A stretch of DNA of 64,000 nt from Aquabacterium sp. (GTDB lineage: Bacteria; Pseudomonadota; Gammaproteobacteria; Burkholderiales; Burkholderiaceae_C), in contig NZ_JAUSAR010000079.1 in assembly GCF_030652515.1 (NCBI RefSeq), positions 1 through 64,000 on the forward strand, given 5' to 3'. Positions 29,457 to 39,197 of this stretch are shown piece by piece. The notes beneath the pieces were generated by a model, which did not search any database, had not been told where the DNA came from, and worked only from the letters and a program-made list of their open reading frames with translations. Each line of letters begins with the position of its first letter. Position 1 is the stretch's first letter. Made by a program: the position numbers and the translations under genes.

Positions 29457-30599
29457 CTATTGCTTGTGCGATCGGGCGATCAGTTGCCCAAGCTGCTGCG
29501 CCTCCTGGGCGATTTCACGCAGCATGCCGGTGGGCGAGACGTAGTAGCCACAGAAGTACAAGCCGCGAGCCTGGCTCAAGGCCTGGCCGCTGAGCACAGG
29601 CAACCCACCTTCGCCGAACACACCCTCGCCAGCCTCCAGCCATGACTGGACATTGGGCCGGTAGCCCGTGGCGAGCACCACGGCATCAAAGGCCTCGGCG
29701 CGGCCATCGCTGAAGACCACACCCTGCTCGGTGAAGCGCTCAATGCCCGGCCGGACCTGGACCAGGCCCTGCTTGATCAAGGCGATGGTGCCCACATCGA
29801 TGAAGGGCACGCGCCCGTGCTTGCGAATCTGCGTGACCGGGCCTTCAGCGGGCTGACGCAATCCGTACTTGGACAAGTCGCCGGTGAGCAAGCGCATCAC
29901 CGGGGCGTTCAAGGCATCGGCCAGTTGGGGCGGCAAACCTTTCTGCAGGATGCCGATGGTCAGGAATGGGATGCCGAACACCTCGCGCCGGATGACGTTG
30001 ACGGGGCTGCGCACCGCCAGGGTGGGCTGCGCGCCATGCTCGTGAAGATCGATGGCGATCTCGCCGCCCGAGTTGCCCAGGCCGACCACCAGCACGCGTT
30101 GGCCCTTGAAAGCGACGCCGTTGGCATAGGCCGAACTGTGCAGGATCTGGCCTTGAAAAGTGCCCATGCCCGGCCAGGTGGGGCGTTGTGGCTCGCGGTT
30201 GTAGCCAGCGGCCACGACCAGCGAACGCGCACGGTACACGGTGTCCTGCGAATGGACTTCCCAGCCGTTGTCGCTTTGGCACGCGCGGACGATCTTCTGC
30301 CCATAAAAAGGCTGGATCTGGTGGTGCCGCGTGTAGGCGTTCAGGTAGTCCACCACCTGCTGGCGCGAGGGGTAGCGCGGGTAGGACTTGGGGAAGTCAA
30401 AGAAGGGTAAAGCCGAGTGGGCCTTGTCGGTGTGCAGGTGCAGGCGGTGATAGTGGCCCACCCAGGACGAGCCCACGTGGTCGTGCTGCTCCAGCACGAT
30501 GCAGGGCACCTTCTCTTTTTGCAGGCAGGCCGCCATGGCCAGACCCGCCGGGCCGGCGCCCACCACGATGACGGGCGAGGCCTGGACCGACGAGCTCAT
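29457..30599 (-). CDS. Flavin-containing monooxygenase-like oxidoreductase
   Basis: The 380-residue FAD/NADPH enzyme is of the FMO/YUCCA/CzcO type. The FAD site GAGPAGLA is at residues 14-21, and a second GxGxxG for NADPH reads VVGLGNSGGEIA near the middle. LATGYRPN near the C-terminus is the usual ATG motif. Family members oxygenate N or S of amines and sulfides, or convert indole-3-pyruvate. Its ATG overlaps the stop of the amine oxidase gene (ATGA), so the two are translationally coupled and probably act on related substrates. Confidence 0.85.
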   Translation of the reverse strand: MSSSVQASPVIVVGAGPAGLAMAACLQKEKVPCIVLEQHDHVGSSWVGHYHRLHLHTDKAHSALPFFDFPKSYPRYPSRQQVVDYLNAYTRHHQIQPFYGQKIVRACQSDNGWEVHSQDTVYRARSLVVAAGYNREPQRPTWPGMGTFQGQILHSSAYANGVAFKGQRVLVVGLGNSGGEIAIDLHEHGAQPTLAVRSPVNVIRREVFGIPFLTIGILQKGLPPQLADALNAPVMRLLTGDLSKYGLRQPAEGPVTQIRKHGRVPFIDVGTIALIKQGLVQVRPGIERFTEQGVVFSDGRAEAFDAVVLATGYRPNVQSWLEAGEGVFGEGGLPVLSGQALSQARGLYFCGYYVSPTGMLREIAQEAQQLGQLIARSHKQ

Positions 30600-32074
30600 G
30601 TGTTCAGGATCTCCTGGGCCACCCGTTCACCGGAGCGCACCGCACCTTCCATGTACCCAGTCCAGATGGACGAGGTTTCGGTGCCTGCCCAGTGCAGCTT
30701 GCCGCAGGGGGCGCGCAGGCTGGGGCCGAAGCCAGTCAACACACCAGGCGGGAAGACGCCGGTGGGCGCACCACCGCTGAAGTTCTCGGCCTGCCAGTTG
30801 TTCTCCATGTAGGCCAGCGGCGTGGCGGCCTTGGGGCCGAAGAACACGGCCAGGGCCTGAAGCACCTTGGCCTTGCGCACCGCCGGTGTCATCAAGGCGG
30901 CGTCGCGCGCATCCTGGCCATCGATGAAGGCCATGATCACGCCAGGCGCGCCAGCCGTGGGCTGGGTGGTGTCGAACACGATCTTGGGCAGGAAGGCATC
31001 GCTGGTGACCTGGCCGCTTAGGCCCTCGTCACGCCAGAAGGGGCGGTCGTACACCACGTGCACCTTCCAGGCCGATCCCATGGGCACGCGCTGCATCATC
31101 TGCAGGCGCACCTGGGTGGGGCCATCAAGCGGCTCGTAGCTCAGGCGCGAGGCCATCCAGGGCGACATGGCCACGACAGCCCGCTGAGCCCGCACGGTGA
31201 AGCCATCGCCCGACACCGCGATGCCGCCGCCATCCTGCTTGACCGAGTGGGCCGCAGCACGGAAGAGGATGCGGCCGCTCAACTGGCGGGCCATGCCCAG
31301 CGCGATGGATTGCGATCCACCCACGATGCGGTCCTGCTGTGCGCCACCTTGCGTGCTGAGCAGGCTGGTGAGGCCACCGCCCGAGTGGACGTAGTGCAGC
31401 ATGTACAGGAAGGAGATGTCGCGCGGCTCGGTCGACACCAGGGACAGCACACACAGACGCAGCAGGTTCTTGGCATCGGCCGTGAGCAGGTTGCGGTCCA
31501 TCCAGGTCTGCATGCTTTGCGAGTCCCACTCGGCGGCCTTGGCGGCGGTCCACGGGGCATCGAGCGGCACCTGTTTGGCCATGGCGTCGATCTTGAGCAT
31601 GGTGATCGCCGTCTCGCCGGTGGCCAGCAGGTTGGACCAGGGCAACACGCCGGTATAAGTGCTGCGCTTGCCGTTGGCGTAGTTGATCAGCTTGCCGGTG
31701 TCGTAGACGGGATAGGTTTTCAGGCCCAGTTGCTGGACCAAGGCGTACATGCGGTCTTGCGTGGGGCCGATGAAGGCCGCGCCACCCTCGACCACGTAAT
31801 TGCTGAAGGGAGCGGGCAGGTTCTGGTTCCAGCAGCGTCCGCCCACGCGGTCACGGGCTTCGAGCAAAAGCACCTGGCGACCAGCGGCCACCAGCGCACG
31901 GGCGCAGGCCAGGCCGGAGTAGCCGCCACCAATGATGACCACGTCGGTGTTGTAGTCGCCGCTGGCAGTGGGGCCGGTGGCGGCCTGGGCCTGCCCGCCC
32001 GTCATCAGGGTGGAGGCGGCCGAAGCCGTGAGGGCGGCCAGGACGTTGCGGCGGTGGATGGTGGGTTGGGTCAT
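30596..32074 (-). CDS. Flavin monoamine oxidase family protein, probable Tat export
   Basis: The 492-residue FAD amine oxidase would convert a primary or secondary amine to an aldehyde or imine, releasing H2O2. The N-terminus HRRNVLAALTASAAS is a Tat-like signal, so the enzyme may be periplasmic. The FAD motifs are IIGGGYSGL, DRVGGRCWN and the C-terminal HWAGTETSSIWTGYMEGAVRSG. The substrate cannot be told. It is coupled to the monooxygenase gene and lies between it and DUF1353, on the strand opposite the DyP-P450 gene. Confidence 0.88.
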   Translation of the reverse strand: MTQPTIHRRNVLAALTASAASTLMTGGQAQAATGPTASGDYNTDVVIIGGGYSGLACARALVAAGRQVLLLEARDRVGGRCWNQNLPAPFSNYVVEGGAAFIGPTQDRMYALVQQLGLKTYPVYDTGKLINYANGKRSTYTGVLPWSNLLATGETAITMLKIDAMAKQVPLDAPWTAAKAAEWDSQSMQTWMDRNLLTADAKNLLRLCVLSLVSTEPRDISFLYMLHYVHSGGGLTSLLSTQGGAQQDRIVGGSQSIALGMARQLSGRILFRAAAHSVKQDGGGIAVSGDGFTVRAQRAVVAMSPWMASRLSYEPLDGPTQVRLQMMQRVPMGSAWKVHVVYDRPFWRDEGLSGQVTSDAFLPKIVFDTTQPTAGAPGVIMAFIDGQDARDAALMTPAVRKAKVLQALAVFFGPKAATPLAYMENNWQAENFSGGAPTGVFPPGVLTGFGPSLRAPCGKLHWAGTETSSIWTGYMEGAVRSGERVAQEILNT

Positions 32075-32672: not shown

Positions 32673-33347
32673 CTAGGCGCACGCCATCGCGGCATCCATC
32701 CGGTTCAGCGCGGGCACCACGGGGGGCAGGATGGTCACCATGCGCACCAAGTCTGCAATGCTCGACGCATTGGTCTTGACCCGCACGCATGAAATCTGAG
32801 TTCTCACGGTCGAGATGGCCACGCCGGATTGTTGGGCGATGGCGGCAGGGCGAAGGCCCAGACACAAGCCCTTCAGCACCACGGTCTCGGCGGTGGTCAG
32901 CCGGTTGGCCATGGCAAAAAAATCAATGCTCAGTGGCTCGCAGGCCTGAGTCTTCCCCAGCAGCAAGAGCACTTTCGGCTCACCGGCTTCACTCGGCGAT
33001 GCGGGCAAAGGCACCACGGCCAAAGACAAAGTAGCGCCCTCGAACTGGAGTGAAAACATGGCGCGCCTTCCGCGGCCGGCCGCTGCCAGTGCCCTGAAGA
33101 ATGGCTCTCGATCGAGGGCTTTGCGTGGTGCGACATGCCCGCCCTGCACCTGCATGGGGCGGCTTGCACCGCACTCCCGCAGCGCCCGGTGGTTGGCATG
33201 GCAGATGCGGGCATTGGCCGTCACCAACATCACGCCATAGTCGATTTCTTCAAGGACGCACTCCATGAGGGCATCCATCGCAGGCACCGGCAGCAGCCGA
33301 CTGGTGGCCGCCGCCACACCCGATAGCGCATGCAAAGACTCGTTCAT
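32673..33347 (-). CDS. LuxR-type transcriptional regulator
   Basis: The 224-residue protein has an N-terminal PAS-like sensor region (about 20-130; IDYGVMLVTANARICHAN) and a C-terminal LuxR HTH (about 148-205; LTTAETVVLKGLCLGL, IAQQSGVAISTVRTQIS). There is no phospho-receiver domain. It heads the minus-strand cluster and diverges from the DyP-P450 gene across a gap of 192 bases (33348-33539), where both promoters must lie. It is the obvious candidate to control both directions. Confidence 0.8.
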   Translation of the reverse strand: MNESLHALSGVAAATSRLLPVPAMDALMECVLEEIDYGVMLVTANARICHANHRALRECGASRPMQVQGGHVAPRKALDREPFFRALAAAGRGRRAMFSLQFEGATLSLAVVPLPASPSEAGEPKVLLLLGKTQACEPLSIDFFAMANRLTTAETVVLKGLCLGLRPAAIAQQSGVAISTVRTQISCVRVKTNASSIADLVRMVTILPPVVPALNRMDAAMACA

Positions 33348-33539
33348 GAAAGCCCCAAGAAGCGGCCACCGTGCCGCCTTGATTCAAGTGTGGGCGAGCT
33401 GAGGCCTTCAGTTCCTTGGTGCGTTCTTAAACGTTCTGAATCTCCGATGGCCCTGGGTGGGGACAGATGCATTTTTCACTTGCAAACCCTACACTTCGAA
33501 ACACTGTATGAAAGCGTGATTGATGCAAGGGAGGCCGAC

Positions 33540-36500
33540 ATGGCTGAGGTTTCGCATGGACTGAATCTGTTCCTGAAGCTCAAAAACCCCTCGGAAATGG
33601 AAGCGTTGTCAAGGCTGATCTTGAGCATTCAGCCAGACATCTACAAGGCCCTCGACAGCCTGCACTACGTTCATTTCGCGCGGTTTTTGCCATCGCCCGA
33701 TGGGTCCATGCTGATGGTCATCACCGAGTTCGACGGCGAGAAAAAGCCCTATGTGATGGATTTCGCCGCCGTCATCGGCACCGAGTTCACCAAAATTCTG
33801 GAGTTCATCGAAGACGCCCCGCCCTTGCCGGTGCAAAAGCACCCCCGAGAGTTTTGGGACTTTGTTGAACGAAACAGCCAGCAACGGGTACCGCTGTGGT
33901 CCGCCTACAAGGACAAGACGGTGCTCGACATCTTGCGGTCAGAGAATCGCCCACCTTCGCCGATCGTTGATGCCCGCCCAGCGCACGTCGAGGTCGATGA
34001 CATCCAGGGCAATGTCTTGCGCGGTTATGGGTCGGCGGGCCAGCATGCGCACCACCTCGCGCTGTCCATCAGTGATGCGCAGGCCGCGCGGGCATTCATT
34101 GGCGAGTTGAGCAATGGCGGCAACGCAGAGCAGGCCTGGCAGGTGACCTCAGGCCAGGACTGGCCTGACAACAAGACCGATCAGCTCCTGCTGAACATCG
34201 GCCTGACCCACCTGGGTCTGGAGGCGATCGGGGTGGCGCCAGCCACCTTGCGGCTGTTTCCCGAGGCGTTTCGGATGGGCCCGGCCGACCCGCAGCGCGC
34301 AAGGCCGAACGGGGACACCGATGACAGCGCCCCCAAAACCTGGCGCCTGGGCAATCCGGATCAGCAACATGTGCACCTCATGCTGTCGCTGTATGCCAGA
34401 AGCGAAGGGCTGCTGAACGCCAAGCTGGCCGACCTGGAACAACGCCTGGTCAGCGCAGGACTGAACAAGGTGTTCGAGCAGCGAACGCAGGCCCTGCCCA
34501 ACAAGCAACTGCACTTCGGTTACCGCGACAGCATCGCGCAGCCCAACCTGGCGATGGTGGGCGCCAAGGCCGCCATGCCCGACCAGCAACCCACCACGGC
34601 CGTGGGCGATTTCCTGCTCGGCAAGGAGTACGTCAACCATGCCGGCGGCAACTTCATTGACCGATTGCCCGCCGCGCTGTGCGACAACGGCACCTACGCG
34701 GCGGTGCGGATCATGGAGCAGGACGTGAAAGCGTTCGAGAAGCTGATCACCGAGCTCGGTCAAACACTGGATCTCGACCCCGAACTGATCGCCGCGAAGT
34801 TGATGGGCCGCTGGCGCAACGGTGCGCCTCTGTCGGTCTGGCCCGACAGTGATGGGGGCACGGCCCCGGCCGACGAAGACATCAACAACTTCGACTTCAG
34901 GCCAAACACGCGAGATCCCAATCTGTACGACGACGCCGAGGGATTGCGCTGCCCGGTCGGCGCGCACATCCGCCGAATGAACCCGCGAAGTGCCTTGGTG
35001 GCCGGCAAGCCTCACAGCCACCGCCTGATCCGCCGTGGCATGCCGTATGGGCCGCTTTACGACCCCGAAGCCCACAGTGACCAGGACAACGTGAAGCGTG
35101 GCCTGTTCGGGATCTTCATCTGCGGTGACCTTGAAAGCCAGTTCGAGTTCCTGCTGCAGGTGTGGGCCAATGGCGATCTGGCGAGCACCGGCATCCGCGG
35201 CACGCATGATCCGATCATTGGCTCCCAGCATCACGGTGGCCGTTTCGTCTTCACCAAGCCCGGGTCGGCTCAGCCGATCGAGATCACCGTGCCCAAGATG
35301 GTCCGCACCGTGGGCAGTGTCTACCTGTTCATGCCCAGCATCTCTGGCTTGCAGCACCTGGCGGCCATGACGCAGCCAACCCCCCCACCCCAGCACCGCC
35401 CGCTTCCCTCCCCCGCAAGCCAGGAGCCGCCCATGCCCACCCCCCTTGATGCCTCGTTCAACCCCAGCACCTTCAATCCTCATGACAAGGCTTTCGTGGC
35501 GGACCCTTACCCCACCTACGCCTGGTTCCGCCAAAACAAGCCGGTGCACCTGGTGGGCGGCCAGCATGGCAGCCATTGGGTGTTCAGCCATGAACTCGTG
35601 TCCCAGGTGCTGTCGCAAAAAGACGTCTTCTTGAAAAACCGACATCCCCCCAAGCTTGAAAACAAGATTGGCGATGTGCTGTTCAACCTCACGGAAAATG
35701 GCCTGTTCTTCATGGATCCGCCACGGCACACCGAAGTGCGCGAAATGCTTGATCCGCTGTTCGCCAAAGCCATTGAGGGCGTCGAGACCAAGGTGAATGA
35801 CATCGCGGCTGATCTGATTGGCAAGATCGCCAGGCCCAGCTCATTCGATCTGGTGGGGGCCTATGCGCAAAGCCTGACGGCCCAGGTGTTCGCAGACATG
35901 TTTGGCATCCCGCTCAGCCAGCTCAAGCCCGTGGTTGGTTGGACGAACAGCGCCATGGCCTCCAACAACAAGGGGCTCACGGACCTGGAGCGCTTCCCGG
36001 GCTTCACGTCTCGCCTGGCATTGGGCGGCTACATGCAGGCCCTGCGCCCCGGGTGCCCCATGGGGGCACAGCACATGATGAGCCAGATGCGCACCCACGC
36101 CGAAGCCCCAGCCAATCCGATGGGCCTGAGCCCGATCGAGTTTCAGCAAACCGCCGTGCACTTCGCGCTGGGAGGCTACCTGTCCACCCAGTTCCTGATC
36201 AGCACAGGCATCTTGAATCTTTTGAAGAACCCCACGCAGCTTGGCAAGCTGATCAGCACGCCAGGGCACATGTCCAATGCCGTTCAGGAGATGCTGCGCT
36301 TTGACGCGGCCTTCGCGGCAGCAGACCGCTACGTGGCCCAGGAGACCCAGCTGGGCGACGTGGTGCTGATGCCTGGTGACAAAGTGACGCTGGCCTATGG
36401 TTCGGCCAACCGTGACGAGAAGGTCTACGCGAACCCCGATGCCTTCGACATCACACGCCAGCCCGACAAAGCCAAACCTCACTTCGCCCTGGGGGGTGGC

Positions 36501-36668
36501 ATCCACTACTGCATCGGCGCGCCCTTGGTGGAGATCGTTGTGCCGCTGGCCATCTCCAAGCTGATCACCACCTTGAGCCGCCTGGAAATCGACACCAGCC
36601 AAGCCCTTGACTGGGGCACCGACCCCTACTTCCGCGCCCCCAGCCGACTGATGTTGCTCACTGATTGA
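33540..36668 (+). CDS. DyP-type haem peroxidase fused to cytochrome P450
   Basis: One open frame of 1042 residues. The start at 33540 has AAGGGAGG just upstream; earlier in-frame Met codons lack such a site. Residues 1-140 are a small alpha-beta domain I cannot name. Residues 146-620 are a DyP peroxidase: GYRDSIAQP (Asp330, normally GxxDG), CPVGAHIRRMNPR (His476, proximal haem ligand), HRLIRRG (candidate distal Arg498), and DLESQFEFLLQVW. A Pro-rich linker leads to a P450 (632-1042). The P450 has ExxR in EMLR, GSANRDE, and the haem loop FALGGGIHYCIG with Cys991. The I-helix reads GGYLST (878-883), lacking the usual acid-Thr pair. An AGGAG at 35422 precedes Met632, so free P450 may also be made. 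No ferredoxin or reductase is nearby; peroxide-driven catalysis is inferred. Confidence 0.88.
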   Translation: MAEVSHGLNLFLKLKNPSEMEALSRLILSIQPDIYKALDSLHYVHFARFLPSPDGSMLMVITEFDGEKKPYVMDFAAVIGTEFTKILEFIEDAPPLPVQKHPREFWDFVERNSQQRVPLWSAYKDKTVLDILRSENRPPSPIVDARPAHVEVDDIQGNVLRGYGSAGQHAHHLALSISDAQAARAFIGELSNGGNAEQAWQVTSGQDWPDNKTDQLLLNIGLTHLGLEAIGVAPATLRLFPEAFRMGPADPQRARPNGDTDDSAPKTWRLGNPDQQHVHLMLSLYARSEGLLNAKLADLEQRLVSAGLNKVFEQRTQALPNKQLHFGYRDSIAQPNLAMVGAKAAMPDQQPTTAVGDFLLGKEYVNHAGGNFIDRLPAALCDNGTYAAVRIMEQDVKAFEKLITELGQTLDLDPELIAAKLMGRWRNGAPLSVWPDSDGGTAPADEDINNFDFRPNTRDPNLYDDAEGLRCPVGAHIRRMNPRSALVAGKPHSHRLIRRGMPYGPLYDPEAHSDQDNVKRGLFGIFICGDLESQFEFLLQVWANGDLASTGIRGTHDPIIGSQHHGGRFVFTKPGSAQPIEITVPKMVRTVGSVYLFMPSISGLQHLAAMTQPTPPPQHRPLPSPASQEPPMPTPLDASFNPSTFNPHDKAFVADPYPTYAWFRQNKPVHLVGGQHGSHWVFSHELVSQVLSQKDVFLKNRHPPKLENKIGDVLFNLTENGLFFMDPPRHTEVREMLDPLFAKAIEGVETKVNDIAADLIGKIARPSSFDLVGAYAQSLTAQVFADMFGIPLSQLKPVVGWTNSAMASNNKGLTDLERFPGFTSRLALGGYMQALRPGCPMGAQHMMSQMRTHAEAPANPMGLSPIEFQQTAVHFALGGYLSTQFLISTGILNLLKNPTQLGKLISTPGHMSNAVQEMLRFDAAFAAADRYVAQETQLGDVVLMPGDKVTLAYGSANRDEKVYANPDAFDITRQPDKAKPHFALGGGIHYCIGAPLVEIVVPLAISKLITTLSRLEIDTSQALDWGTDPYFRAPSRLMLLTD
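35422..35435 (+). promoter_or_regulatory. Internal ribosome-binding site and ATG in front of the P450 domain
   Basis: AGGAG at 35422-35426 lies six bases before an in-frame ATG at 35433. Initiation here would give a 411-residue protein, the normal length of a free bacterial P450. It sits in the Pro-rich linker between the two haem domains. It may be a relic of two separate genes or a working second start. Confidence 0.6.
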
Positions 36669-36686: not shown

Positions 36687-39197
36687 GTGCAAACTTTGAG
36701 TTTTGGCCGCTTTGAAGTACGCCCGACGGAAAGACGCCTGCTGATCGATCAACAGGCCGTCACCATCGGGGCACGCGCCTTTGATGTCCTGCTGACCTTG
36801 ATCGAACGCCGAGGCCGCGCGGTCACCAAGAGCGAACTGCTCGACGCGGTCTGGCCCCACCTCGTCGTCGAAGAGAACAACCTGCACGTGCACATCTCGG
36901 CGCTGCGCAAGTTGCTTGGCGCCGACGTGATCGCCACCATCCCTGGCCTGGGTTACCGCTTTGCAGTCTTGCTGGACTGCGAGCTGACGGCTGCCGCGGT
37001 GCCCGAAGCCGCCAGGCACAACCTGCCGGAAAAACTGCCCGCTCTGTATGGCCGTGAACAAGACCTTCAATCACTGCTGGCCCTGATCCGGCAGCATGCG
37101 CTGGTGACCATCGTTGGCGCAGGTGGCATTGGCAAAACAAGGCTCGCGATGGCCGCCGCCCATGAGCTGCGCAACGCATATCCCCACGGCGCATGGGCCG
37201 TCGAGATGGCGGCCATCAACGACCCCTCTCATGTGCTGCCCACCATCGCCAAAAGCCTGCAGATCACGCTGCCGGGCAACAGCTCGGCACGGCAGGAACT
37301 CATCACCGCGCTGAAATCACAAACCCTGCTGCTGGTGCTGGACAACTGCGAGCATGTGCTCGACGTGGTCAGCGATCTGGCCTGCGGCCTTCTTCACGAA
37401 GCGCCCGGGGTTCGCTTGCTGGCCACCAGCCAGGAATTGCTGCGCGTCCATGGCGAGCAACTCTTCCGACTGTCGCCATTGGCCGTGCCGACATTGGGCC
37501 AGGCCGACCACGCCGCCGATTTTGGGGCCGTGCAATTGTTTGTCGAACGGGTCCGCGCACTCGATGCCAGCTTCGAGCTGAACGCCGACAACACCAGCGC
37601 GATCATCGACATCTGCGGCCGACTCGATGGAATTGCGCTGGCGCTCGAACTGGCGGCAGCGCGCGTTCCCCTGTTGGGGATCACGGGCATGCGCGAGCGC
37701 CTCAGCGAACGCTTTCACATGCTGACGGGGGGCGCGCGCGTGTCCTTGCGGCGCCATCAAACCCTGCGTGCTGCGCTGGACTGGAGCCACAACCTGCTGG
37801 CCGCCAAAGAGCAGAAGGTTTTCCGCCGCCTTGGCGTGTTCTCTGGCGGCTTCACCCTGGACAACGCCCAACGGGTGGTCACCGACGACCAACTGGACGA
37901 ATGGGCCGTGATTGACCAACTGAGCGCATTGGCCGACAAATCCTTGCTGATGGTGGAGGTCGGCCCCAGACCCAGGTACCGCATGCTGGAGACCGCGCGC
38001 AGCTATGCGGTTGAGAAGCTGGCCGAGGCCGGGGAGACCGACACCTTGTTGCGTCGGCACGCCCTGGCCACCCAGGCCGTGATGACGCGCGCCGTCAAGC
38101 GCCGCGACATGGCACTGCTGGCGCAAGAGATGAACAACGTGCGCGCCGCCTTCGCCTGGGCCATCGGCCCGCATGGCGACGCCCCCATCGCTGTCGCGCT
38201 GGCCACGGCCTCCTCGGTCGTGCTGGCCGTGGAAGGCTTCGTGGTCGAAGCGCTGGACCGCTTGCTGCGTGTGGAGCCGCTGGTGAACGACGCCACGCCG
38301 CCGCCGCTGGCGGCCCAGTATTGGCAATGGCTGGGCCGCCATGGCGTGGATGGCAGATTGCCGGTATCGCGCTGCATCGACGCCTTCCTCCGATCCGAAA
38401 GCATGTTCAGGCAGCAGGGCAACGCGCGGCACCTGCATGCCTGCCTGCGCATGCGGGCCGAAGCCATGCTGGAGACCACGGACATGGCGGATGCGCAAGC
38501 CGCGCTGGACGAGGCCGAGCGCATGGAAGGCGCCGGGTGGCCCGTCGCCGACCGCATGCGCCGCCTCCGCGTGCAAGGCATGCTGCTGGCCGCGACCAAC
38601 CAACCAGAGAAAGCACTGGCGACCTTCGAGATGGCCTATCAGCTGGCCGAGTCCGCCAGCATCGACCGGTATGTGCTGAATCTGCTGTCGGACATGGCAG
38701 GCACCCACCTCACCATGGGTCATGCGGACACGGCGGCCCAGCAGTTCCTGGCACTCGCCAGGATGGCCAGGATGCGGCCCACCGGCGGCTTGACGCTGTG
38801 CTATGCCTTGTCGGGGTTGACAGCCGCCCTGATCGCCAGCAACCGACTGGACCAAGCCCGCCAGGTCGCCGCAGAAGCGATCCCCTTGCTGCGACGCTCC
38901 GGGATATTCATCTCACGCAGCGACATCTTCGCGTGGCTGCTCGCCCGTGAACACCACTTCCCAGCCGCTGCGCGACTGCTCGGGGCGTCCGATGCGCTGC
39001 GCGAGCGCTGCGAGAGCTCGCGGGGCACCATCGAACGCCATGTGCGGGCTGAAACTCAGTCGCTGTTGCAGGCCGCGCACCCCGACCGGACCATCCGGGA
39101 CTGGATGGCCGAGGGGGCCCTGGCCAGCGAGGATGAGCTGGCAGAGCTTGTATTGGAGACCACGCCACCTGCACGACTCAAACCAGCGGCGCTTTGA
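36687..39197 (+). CDS. Winged-helix regulator with NB-ARC-type ATPase and helical repeats
   Basis: The 836-residue STAND-type regulator starts at a GTG, 18 bases after the P450 stop. Residues 1-95 are an OmpR-type winged helix (FGRFEVRPTERRLLI, ISALRKLLG, IPGLGYRF). Residues 115-400 are a P-loop ATPase with Walker A GAGGIGKT and Walker B LLLVLDNCEHVLD. The rest is helical, probably TPR-like. Such proteins integrate a signal through nucleotide-driven oligomerisation and activate nearby genes. Co-transcription with the DyP-P450 gene is likely. The 3' end overlaps the convergent subtilase gene by 20 bases. Confidence 0.85.
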   Translation: MQTLSFGRFEVRPTERRLLIDQQAVTIGARAFDVLLTLIERRGRAVTKSELLDAVWPHLVVEENNLHVHISALRKLLGADVIATIPGLGYRFAVLLDCELTAAAVPEAARHNLPEKLPALYGREQDLQSLLALIRQHALVTIVGAGGIGKTRLAMAAAHELRNAYPHGAWAVEMAAINDPSHVLPTIAKSLQITLPGNSSARQELITALKSQTLLLVLDNCEHVLDVVSDLACGLLHEAPGVRLLATSQELLRVHGEQLFRLSPLAVPTLGQADHAADFGAVQLFVERVRALDASFELNADNTSAIIDICGRLDGIALALELAAARVPLLGITGMRERLSERFHMLTGGARVSLRRHQTLRAALDWSHNLLAAKEQKVFRRLGVFSGGFTLDNAQRVVTDDQLDEWAVIDQLSALADKSLLMVEVGPRPRYRMLETARSYAVEKLAEAGETDTLLRRHALATQAVMTRAVKRRDMALLAQEMNNVRAAFAWAIGPHGDAPIAVALATASSVVLAVEGFVVEALDRLLRVEPLVNDATPPPLAAQYWQWLGRHGVDGRLPVSRCIDAFLRSESMFRQQGNARHLHACLRMRAEAMLETTDMADAQAALDEAERMEGAGWPVADRMRRLRVQGMLLAATNQPEKALATFEMAYQLAESASIDRYVLNLLSDMAGTHLTMGHADTAAQQFLALARMARMRPTGGLTLCYALSGLTAALIASNRLDQARQVAAEAIPLLRRSGIFISRSDIFAWLLAREHHFPAAARLLGASDALRERCESSRGTIERHVRAETQSLLQAAHPDRTIRDWMAEGALASEDELAELVLETTPPARLKPAAL

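Follow-up and report, generated by a model that had tools for sequence, protein, structure and literature searches.

A DyP-type peroxidase joined to a cytochrome P450 in Aquabacterium sp.: a candidate two-haem relay enzyme with relatives across its family

What might a DyP-type peroxidase do on the same polypeptide as a cytochrome P450? The question is raised by a plus-strand gene in a 64,000-nucleotide stretch of Aquabacterium sp. DNA (positions 1 to 64,000 of contig NZ_JAUSAR010000079.1, assembly GCF_030652515.1; hereafter the window), whose open frame, from the ATG at 33540 to the TGA at 36668, encodes an N-terminal domain (N-domain), a DyP domain and a P450 domain in 1042 amino acids (aa). 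By analogy with the fungal dioxygenase-P450 (Ppo/linoleate diol synthase) fusions, we tentatively propose that its product is a bacterial counterpart of these, a two-haem relay enzyme that employs an unrelated peroxidase; we put the chances of this just short of even. The physical and genetic coupling of DyP and N-domain to a P450 without the acid-alcohol pair, and in clade A, the window type, also to a STAND-type regulator, is strongly supported by sequence comparison; the chemistry and the substrate of the relay we infer.

One gene, three domains

An earlier note on this DNA had described a DyP peroxidase and a P450 in one polypeptide, and had considered that a sequencing error might hide a stop codon between residues 620 and 632, or that homologues might always be two genes. 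Neither concern held up. The same domain order is encoded in one frame in four other genera of the family (search of 299 family genomes): G570 (47% identity), G521 (42% full-length, 41% in alignment A1), G552 (43% over the DyP half, 35% overall in alignment A1) and the more divergent G604 (locus L051; 34%, alignment A4). One homologue, in a fifth genus (G414, L050), is split into two genes with a 4-base overlap. A hidden stop at the junction is unlikely because three homologues, as well as the divergent fourth, read through in one frame; GC content at third codon positions is 0.80 in the junction block (residues 601-660) and ranges over the gene from 0.73 to 0.90. Given the single-frame homologues, a chance join or a frameshift is an unlikely origin for the fusion. 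On this sequence evidence, 33540-36668 is a genuine gene that encodes three domains in one protein, and no sequencing artefact. Because a strong ribosome-binding site (AAGGGAGG, 33527-33534, plus strand) precedes it and homologues start near the equivalent position, we place the start at 33540 rather than at 33330, to which the open frame extends upstream.

The six clade-A members group together in quick trees of the DyP (98) and P450 (99) domains. Their P450s pass the Pfam p450 cut-off in L047-L050, as do those of L052, L057, L060 and L043, but not in L051. The source genome (G000) is a draft with 8.99% contamination; a scan of genome contigs gave one weak match, to the P450 only, and three genomes of the same genus in the family search gave no match. 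Among the five matches listed, the CtaD encoded in the window is closest to plasmid copies from Comamonadaceae, Variovorax and Caballeronia (77-80%; one further record falls in the 90-95% band), which would suit a burkholderialean source. With architectures C and D, described below, the fusion recurs beyond the window, in at least three fused clades as judged from sequence.

We assigned the DyP domain (residues 150-608; 33987-35363, plus strand) on its residues, its match to solved structures and its fold, despite a missed family cut-off. TIGR01413 matches it with an E value of 5e-20 and 72 bits, below the curated cut-off of 100.5, which other members of the group pass (L065, 101.7 bits; L083, 102.4 bits); a Pfam search of the window protein gave no DyP match at E ≤ 1. 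The closest solved structure is the D. radiodurans DyP (phmmer, 1.5e-53, residues 150-608), and the AlphaFold model matches 8re2/8re3 with a Foldseek TMt of 0.82/0.80. Asp330 (34527-34529) and His476 (34965-34967), the predicted haem ligand, lie where the earlier note had put them, as does Cys991 of the P450; the distal arginine is Arg498. In a census of 69 related DyP domains, the Asp position holds Asp in 67 and Glu in 2, and the His and one Arg are present in all 69. The GxxDG motif of the window DyP reads GYRDS, Ser replacing the last Gly.

Ahead of the DyP lies the domain of about 140 residues that had been left unassigned (residues 4-139; 33549-33956, plus strand), which almost always accompanies the DyPs of this group. 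It putatively adopts a ferredoxin-like dimeric alpha-beta-barrel (ABM-like) fold, an assignment by fold only, as the three N-domain proteins scanned had no Pfam or NCBIfam match to a known family; His45 and Tyr71 are invariant (20/20 rows, alignment A3).

The P450 domain (residues 645-1039; 35472-36656, plus strand) was identified by alignment, by Pfam (PF00067, 60.7 bits; cut-off, 22.8) and by Foldseek, whose best match was P450BioI (TMt up to 0.93). It has an ExxR motif (E917-R920; residues 917-920; 36288-36299), the predicted haem ligand Cys991 (36510-36512) and, in the haem loop, Leu984 at the usual Phe position; in the I helix, GYLS (residues 879-882; 36174-36185) replaces the acid-alcohol pair, AGx(D/E)T, with Leu881 where the acid would be. 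The chain shows N-domain, DyP and P450 only: Pfam, NCBIfam and the model gave no fused reductase domain as in CYP102 or CYP116, and Pfam matched no cyclooxygenase (COX)-like animal haem peroxidase domain in the window protein, which has the DyP in its place. Sequence and model thus support two haem-enzyme domains, each predicted to bind haem.

A Pro-rich linker (residues 609-644; 35364-35471, plus strand), with a predicted local distance difference test score below 50 at residues 613-632, joins the DyP to the P450. Domain placement in the full-length model is not interpretable, because its predicted TM-score is only 0.55. An AGGAG with an in-frame ATG (Met632) at 35422-35435 in the linker may be left over from an arrangement of two genes or may serve as an additional start, giving a free P450; this is suggestive only, since the gene contains four such Shine-Dalgarno-like internal starts, the other three within domains. 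The linkers of L047, L048 and L049 lack an AGGAG-ATG at equal spacing.

The linked P450s lack the I-helix acid

None of 43 DyP-linked P450s has the I-helix acid (clade A, 0/6; B, 0/9; C, 0/14; D, 0/14). Clade A reads GYLS or AGQLAP at this site and clade B GN(V/L)Q in 8/9, and PT occupies it in 13/14 of clade C and 11/14 of clade D. Background P450s read AGx(D/E)T or near in 12/12 alignment rows and in 19/19 readable sequences of 20 fetched; the two sets share two genes (31 readings in total) and, nearly all picked for a good match to P0001, do not sample P450s at random. Three rows were left out, L140 because its P450 could not be read and L127 and L014 because they do not align in the I helix, and the motif match of L057 falls outside its aligned I helix. 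Both P450s from Methylobacteriaceae have the acid (2/2); that of L043 reads canonical AGHETT. Clade A sits amid ordinary bacterial P450s in the P450 tree, and B, C and D lie elsewhere.

Fungal hydroperoxide-rearranging P450s also depart from the monooxygenase pattern in substrate recognition site 4, with Asn in linoleate diol synthases and epoxy alcohol synthases and other residues in allene oxide synthases (PMC13049297). The departure is in the same helix region as here; we do not claim identical residues.

The P450C domains (L059, L064, L065, L107, L110, L112-L119) have haem loops with an insertion ahead of HAC(P/S)G and have apparently lost ExxR. Annotation would miss these domains, because a Pfam search at E 0.1 reported no p450 for L059.

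A wider module with an exchangeable second partner

Searches with the N-domain only gave matches in 27/398 phylum, 11/300 order and 56/299 family genomes (the samples overlap). We fetched 34 of the 35 loci from the phylum and order searches, the window's excluded; some are close kin, such as L085 and L087, and the 35th, G323 (= L066), also has a DyP and a P450D. DyP is present at all 34 (34/34), a P450 at 20, a catalase-like protein at 9, both at none and neither at 5. Were the two partners independent, their never occurring together would have a chance of 4e-5, kinship among the loci being ignored. The module genes are mostly fused or abutting, on one strand.

Architecture A, the window type, is N-domain/DyP/P450. 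In B, a fused P450/N-domain is followed by DyP, and 7/10 loci have a patatin; C is N-domain/DyP/P450 in frames of ~1150-1590 aa (14 loci, 11 in family genomes); D is P450/N-domain/N-domain/DyP, either in one frame of 1409-1536 aa (7 loci) or as separate genes, its first N-domain being undetected in L060; and E comprises catalase-like protein, N-domain and DyP. A and C have the P450 at the C terminus, D at the N terminus. One DyP (L098) is joined to catalase-like sequence, another (L058) to patatin. Fusions of type A or C occur in at least 15/299 family genomes (5 A, 11 C, G604 with both), a lower bound because other ~1200-aa frames from the family search were not fetched. The hidden Markov models (HMMs) used for locus assignment were rebuilt once from matches in the same loci, so weak domain assignments lean on them; gene calls in relatives' genomes came from a custom script, which overlooked DyP genes annotated in L045 and L071. 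Hydrophobic, possibly membrane-spanning stretches lie beside or between two N-domains in L060, L083, L085, L086, L096, L097 and L101; five fused D proteins checked have such stretches between the N-domains.

At twelve plasmid loci (L043-L046, L067-L074) the N-domain, where found, and DyP are separate genes, and a catalase-family gene lies ahead in 8/12 (annotated in L043, L046, L067, L068, L069, L070 and L073; found by HMM in L044). The Methylorubrum operon at L043, which adds a P450, a ferredoxin and an FAD-dependent oxidoreductase to the DyP and catalase genes, is the sole arrangement in which a P450 and a catalase-like protein occur together. Its catalase-like protein matches Pfam Catalase below the cut-off (one such protein scanned), and that of L069 matched no solved chain at E 0.1 (one such protein compared). 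In the catalase-like partners of L084, L090 and L109, Asn replaces the His of the RDAHAK stretch (alignment A6).

Regulators, cyclases and lipid genes nearby

Directly downstream of the fusion gene, at 36687-39197 on the plus strand, is a regulator gene encoding an OmpR-type DNA-binding domain and a STAND/AAA ATPase, with a weak TPR match (Pfam). Its homologue (best full-length match) adjoins the DyP-P450 gene in all five other clade-A members (42-56% identity), on the opposite strand to the fusion gene in L048, which gives 6/6 of clade A a STAND-type regulator beside the system. A divergent LuxR-type gene (32673-33347, minus strand; GerE, 21.3 bits, cut-off 23.5) may encode a local regulator; homologues occur in L050 (40%, same divergent place) and L052 (43%), and none was found at E 1e-8 in the examined stretches of L047-L049, L051, L057 and L059. 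Upstream on the other strand, a flavin amine oxidase gene (30596-32074) overlaps a flavin monooxygenase (FMO)-like gene (29457-30599); neither has a homologue at eight related loci searched, and we set both aside. Among seven window neighbours scanned with Pfam there was no ferredoxin or ferredoxin reductase.

In the stretches examined, a class III cyclase-like gene lies near the system at 10/10 B and 13/14 C loci (the C locus without one, L082, is a 6.5-kb contig), at 4/7 fused D loci as well as L101, L103, L105, L108 and L111, and at the catalase-type loci L062, L099, L123 and L124; L049 of clade A also shows a cyclase match. Pfam resolved three of the cyclases, two as Guanylate_cyc + AAA + TPR (L065, L101) and one as Guanylate_cyc + TPR (L083). 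Ten B or C genomes, selected for having the system, contain 34 PF00211 matches in total (2-8 each), and a match lies within 7 kb of the system in 10/10, abutting it in nine; the B-type matches are weak, and two exceed the cut-off only with neighbours. CRP-type genes lie near several D systems. At seven catalase-type plasmid loci searched we found none of these genes. We rejected anti-phage defence as a role: PADLOC gave no match for the window protein, its regulator, one patatin or one P450B protein. The L065 cyclase matches Pycsar cyclase models in PADLOC (best 1.4e-15), which we read as shared class III cyclase homology.

Three near-copies (L046, L069, L070) have divergent oleate hydratase, 3-hydroxyacyl-CoA dehydrogenase and thioesterase genes beside catalase-like/N-domain/DyP operons, and L072 has a Fur-family regulator and katG ~4 kb downstream. 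Two single-locus neighbours were also recorded: a Tle1-like phospholipase-domain gene (L091, 4712-5740) adjoining a P450D/N-domain/DyP operon, and a glutathione-S-transferase-like gene (L066, 11663-12457) right after a P450D gene.

A possible lipid hydroperoxide relay and its rivals

In the relay that we propose, the DyP, with the help of the N-domain, would form a hydroperoxide from a lipid, such as an unsaturated fatty acid, and hand it to the fused P450. The P450 itself would split the O-O bond and rearrange the lipid (to a diol, epoxy alcohol, allene oxide or aldehyde), a step that should need no ferredoxin or NAD(P)H. In the sister systems, the second step may fall to other P450 clades or to a catalase-like haem protein, patatin lipases may supply the lipid, and product or substrate may be sensed or regulated via the neighbouring STAND regulator or class III cyclase. 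Such a relay appears to be the best fit because the genes are fused or abutting in several orders, the second partner is swappable, the O2-activation motif is lost, and lipase and fatty-acid genes neighbour the sister systems.

Several observations weigh against it. We know of no DyP that acts as a fatty-acid dioxygenase, and the window DyP retains ordinary peroxidase residues. DrDyP, the nearest solved DyP, oxidises 2,2'-azino-bis(3-ethylbenzothiazoline-6-sulfonic acid) (ABTS) with H2O2 at low pH (PMC10820274). Because no patatin was found in the examined stretches of clade A, the lipid link is drawn from sister systems. Five of the 34 N-domain loci (L081, L088, L097, L102, L106) are without a P450 or catalase-like partner, and neither was seen at 4/12 plasmid loci (L045, L071, L072, L074). 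The clade C P450s appear to be without ExxR and the L051 P450 falls below the Pfam cut-off (14.6 versus 22.8), so that roles for degenerate P450s are possible. Some true monooxygenases carry altered I-helix motifs, and loss of the acid is by itself no proof of hydroperoxide use. Repeated loss of the acid in linked P450s is favoured, but no more than that, because an approximately unbiased test does not reject one origin of all 43 (p 0.088); nor is A + C as a single DyP clade rejected (p 0.111).

The strongest rival is lipid-peroxide detoxification, in which the DyP would reduce damage-derived lipid hydroperoxides and the P450 or catalase-like protein would isomerise or cleave them, scavenging rather than synthesising. 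The same gene coupling speaks for it, as do the full set of peroxidase residues in the DyP, the catalase-like nature of the alternative partner, the patatins, which could free oxidised acyl chains, and the Fur-family regulator and katG of L072. However, the STAND regulators (A, 6/6) or cyclases (B, 10/10; C, 13/14) alongside look like controlled signalling, and oxidative-stress neighbours were recognised only in L072, the neighbours being partly annotated; we consider scavenging unlikely. The earlier note had hinted at a different pairing, with the DyP oxidising one substrate and the P450 acting as a peroxygenase, both on H2O2. Two predicted haem-enzyme domains on one chain are supported by sequence, model and homologues, and the haem-ligand and catalytic residues of both domains, together with the lost acid-alcohol pair, would suit a shared oxidant. 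Use of H2O2 by both domains finds no specific support, however: no CYP152-type match was found (FAProxCypC, E 0.14 and 10.7 bits, where the cut-off is 600), a score too weak for a CYP152 peroxygenase, an identity that we reject; the gene context of the sister systems points to lipids; and the flavin amine oxidase, which might supply H2O2, lacks a homologue at all eight related loci searched. An H2O2-driven pair therefore seems quite improbable.

We see a similarly small chance that the P450 is an ordinary monooxygenase fed electrons by a ferredoxin encoded elsewhere, the fusion with a peroxidase only co-localising consecutive pathway steps. The nearest P450 folds are bacterial, for example P450BioI, and the place of clade A in the tree agrees with this; but the acid-alcohol pair is gone in 6/6 of clade A, the seven window neighbours include no ferredoxin or ferredoxin reductase, and the related operon annotated with ferredoxin and FAD-oxidoreductase, that of L043, keeps the canonical motif. 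It is very improbable that the P450 domain does no catalysis and only serves the DyP as a structural element or by binding substrate. Such a role would accord with the apparent loss of ExxR in P450C and with an NCBIfam model of a P450-derived activator that matches below its cut-off (95.8 versus 343 bits), yet the window P450 retains both Cys991 and ExxR, and a catalase-like protein can take the partner's place.

Relation to known systems and significance

The fungal dioxygenase-P450 (DOX-CYP) fusions (PpoA, linoleate diol synthase; CYP6001-6005) place a haem peroxidase-type oxygenase N-terminal to a self-sufficient P450, and the C. cinerea members are of 1066 and 1118 aa (PMC13049297, PMC9579011). 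Their first domain is animal-haem-peroxidase/COX-like, whereas the protein described here, known from sequence, has a DyP of a separate superfamily and an extra ferredoxin-like domain. The analogy with fungal fusions that the earlier note had drawn proved stronger than claimed, in that both domain orders occur and the alternative partner is catalase-like. In oomycete P450-dioxygenase fusions (CYP5619) the P450 comes first (PMC5919972), the order of the P450D/N-domain/N-domain/DyP proteins (~1410-1540 aa); theirs is another kind of dioxygenase/peroxidase, with no DyP. In corals, a catalase-related allene oxide synthase/hydroperoxide lyase is fused to a lipoxygenase (PMC5617202). A catalase-like haem domain for the second step of a two-enzyme lipid system would be common to both, with DyP in place of lipoxygenase here.

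The P. aeruginosa diol synthases PA2077/PA2078 are periplasmic haem enzymes with hydroperoxide-then-diol chemistry and a LysR regulator, and they are not known to include a P450 or DyP. These two oxygenating enzymes are encoded in one operon that adjoins the gene for the oxylipin-sensing regulator OdsR (PMC6377657). Theirs are separate genes for periplasmic proteins under a LysR regulator; here there is one chain and a STAND-type regulator.

DyPs are widespread and known chiefly for their action on dyes and lignin; for most of them the natural substrate has yet to be established. The D. radiodurans DyP (8re2/8re3) is inactive at physiological pH, and its physiological substrate is an open question (PMC10820274). 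It was crystallised as DyP alone and has GxxDM; the window protein has GxxDS. We recognised no description of a bacterial DyP-P450 fusion or of a DyP/N-domain/catalase-like operon among the open-access papers covered by our searches, and DyP goes unmentioned in the available part of an octadecanoid review (PMC11719350).

A larger proposal, which we regard as doubtful, is that the DyPs of this group, with their N-domains, are lipid dioxygenases. The hydroperoxide-forming half of oxylipin synthesis would then have arisen independently once more, in addition to lipoxygenase and COX-like dioxygenase, and these DyPs would be repeatedly wired to P450 or catalase-like enzymes that rearrange hydroperoxides, to patatin lipases and to STAND or cyclase receptors, in a large bacterial oxylipin signalling system so far undescribed. 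The fixed partners of these proteins (a P450 devoid of O2-activating machinery, or else a catalase-like protein, sometimes a lipase, often a regulator or cyclase) make the question of DyP substrates testable in one group. If the relay exists, it would be a bacterial oxylipin route on a peroxidase superfamily not, to our knowledge, previously linked to oxylipins, and the single chain that holds both steps can be directly expressed and assayed. It would also be a clear parallel to the fungal, oomycete and coral fusions, down to the two possible domain orders and the two types of enzyme that carry out the second step, and would amount to a two-step synthesis of oxidised lipids, perhaps of signals.

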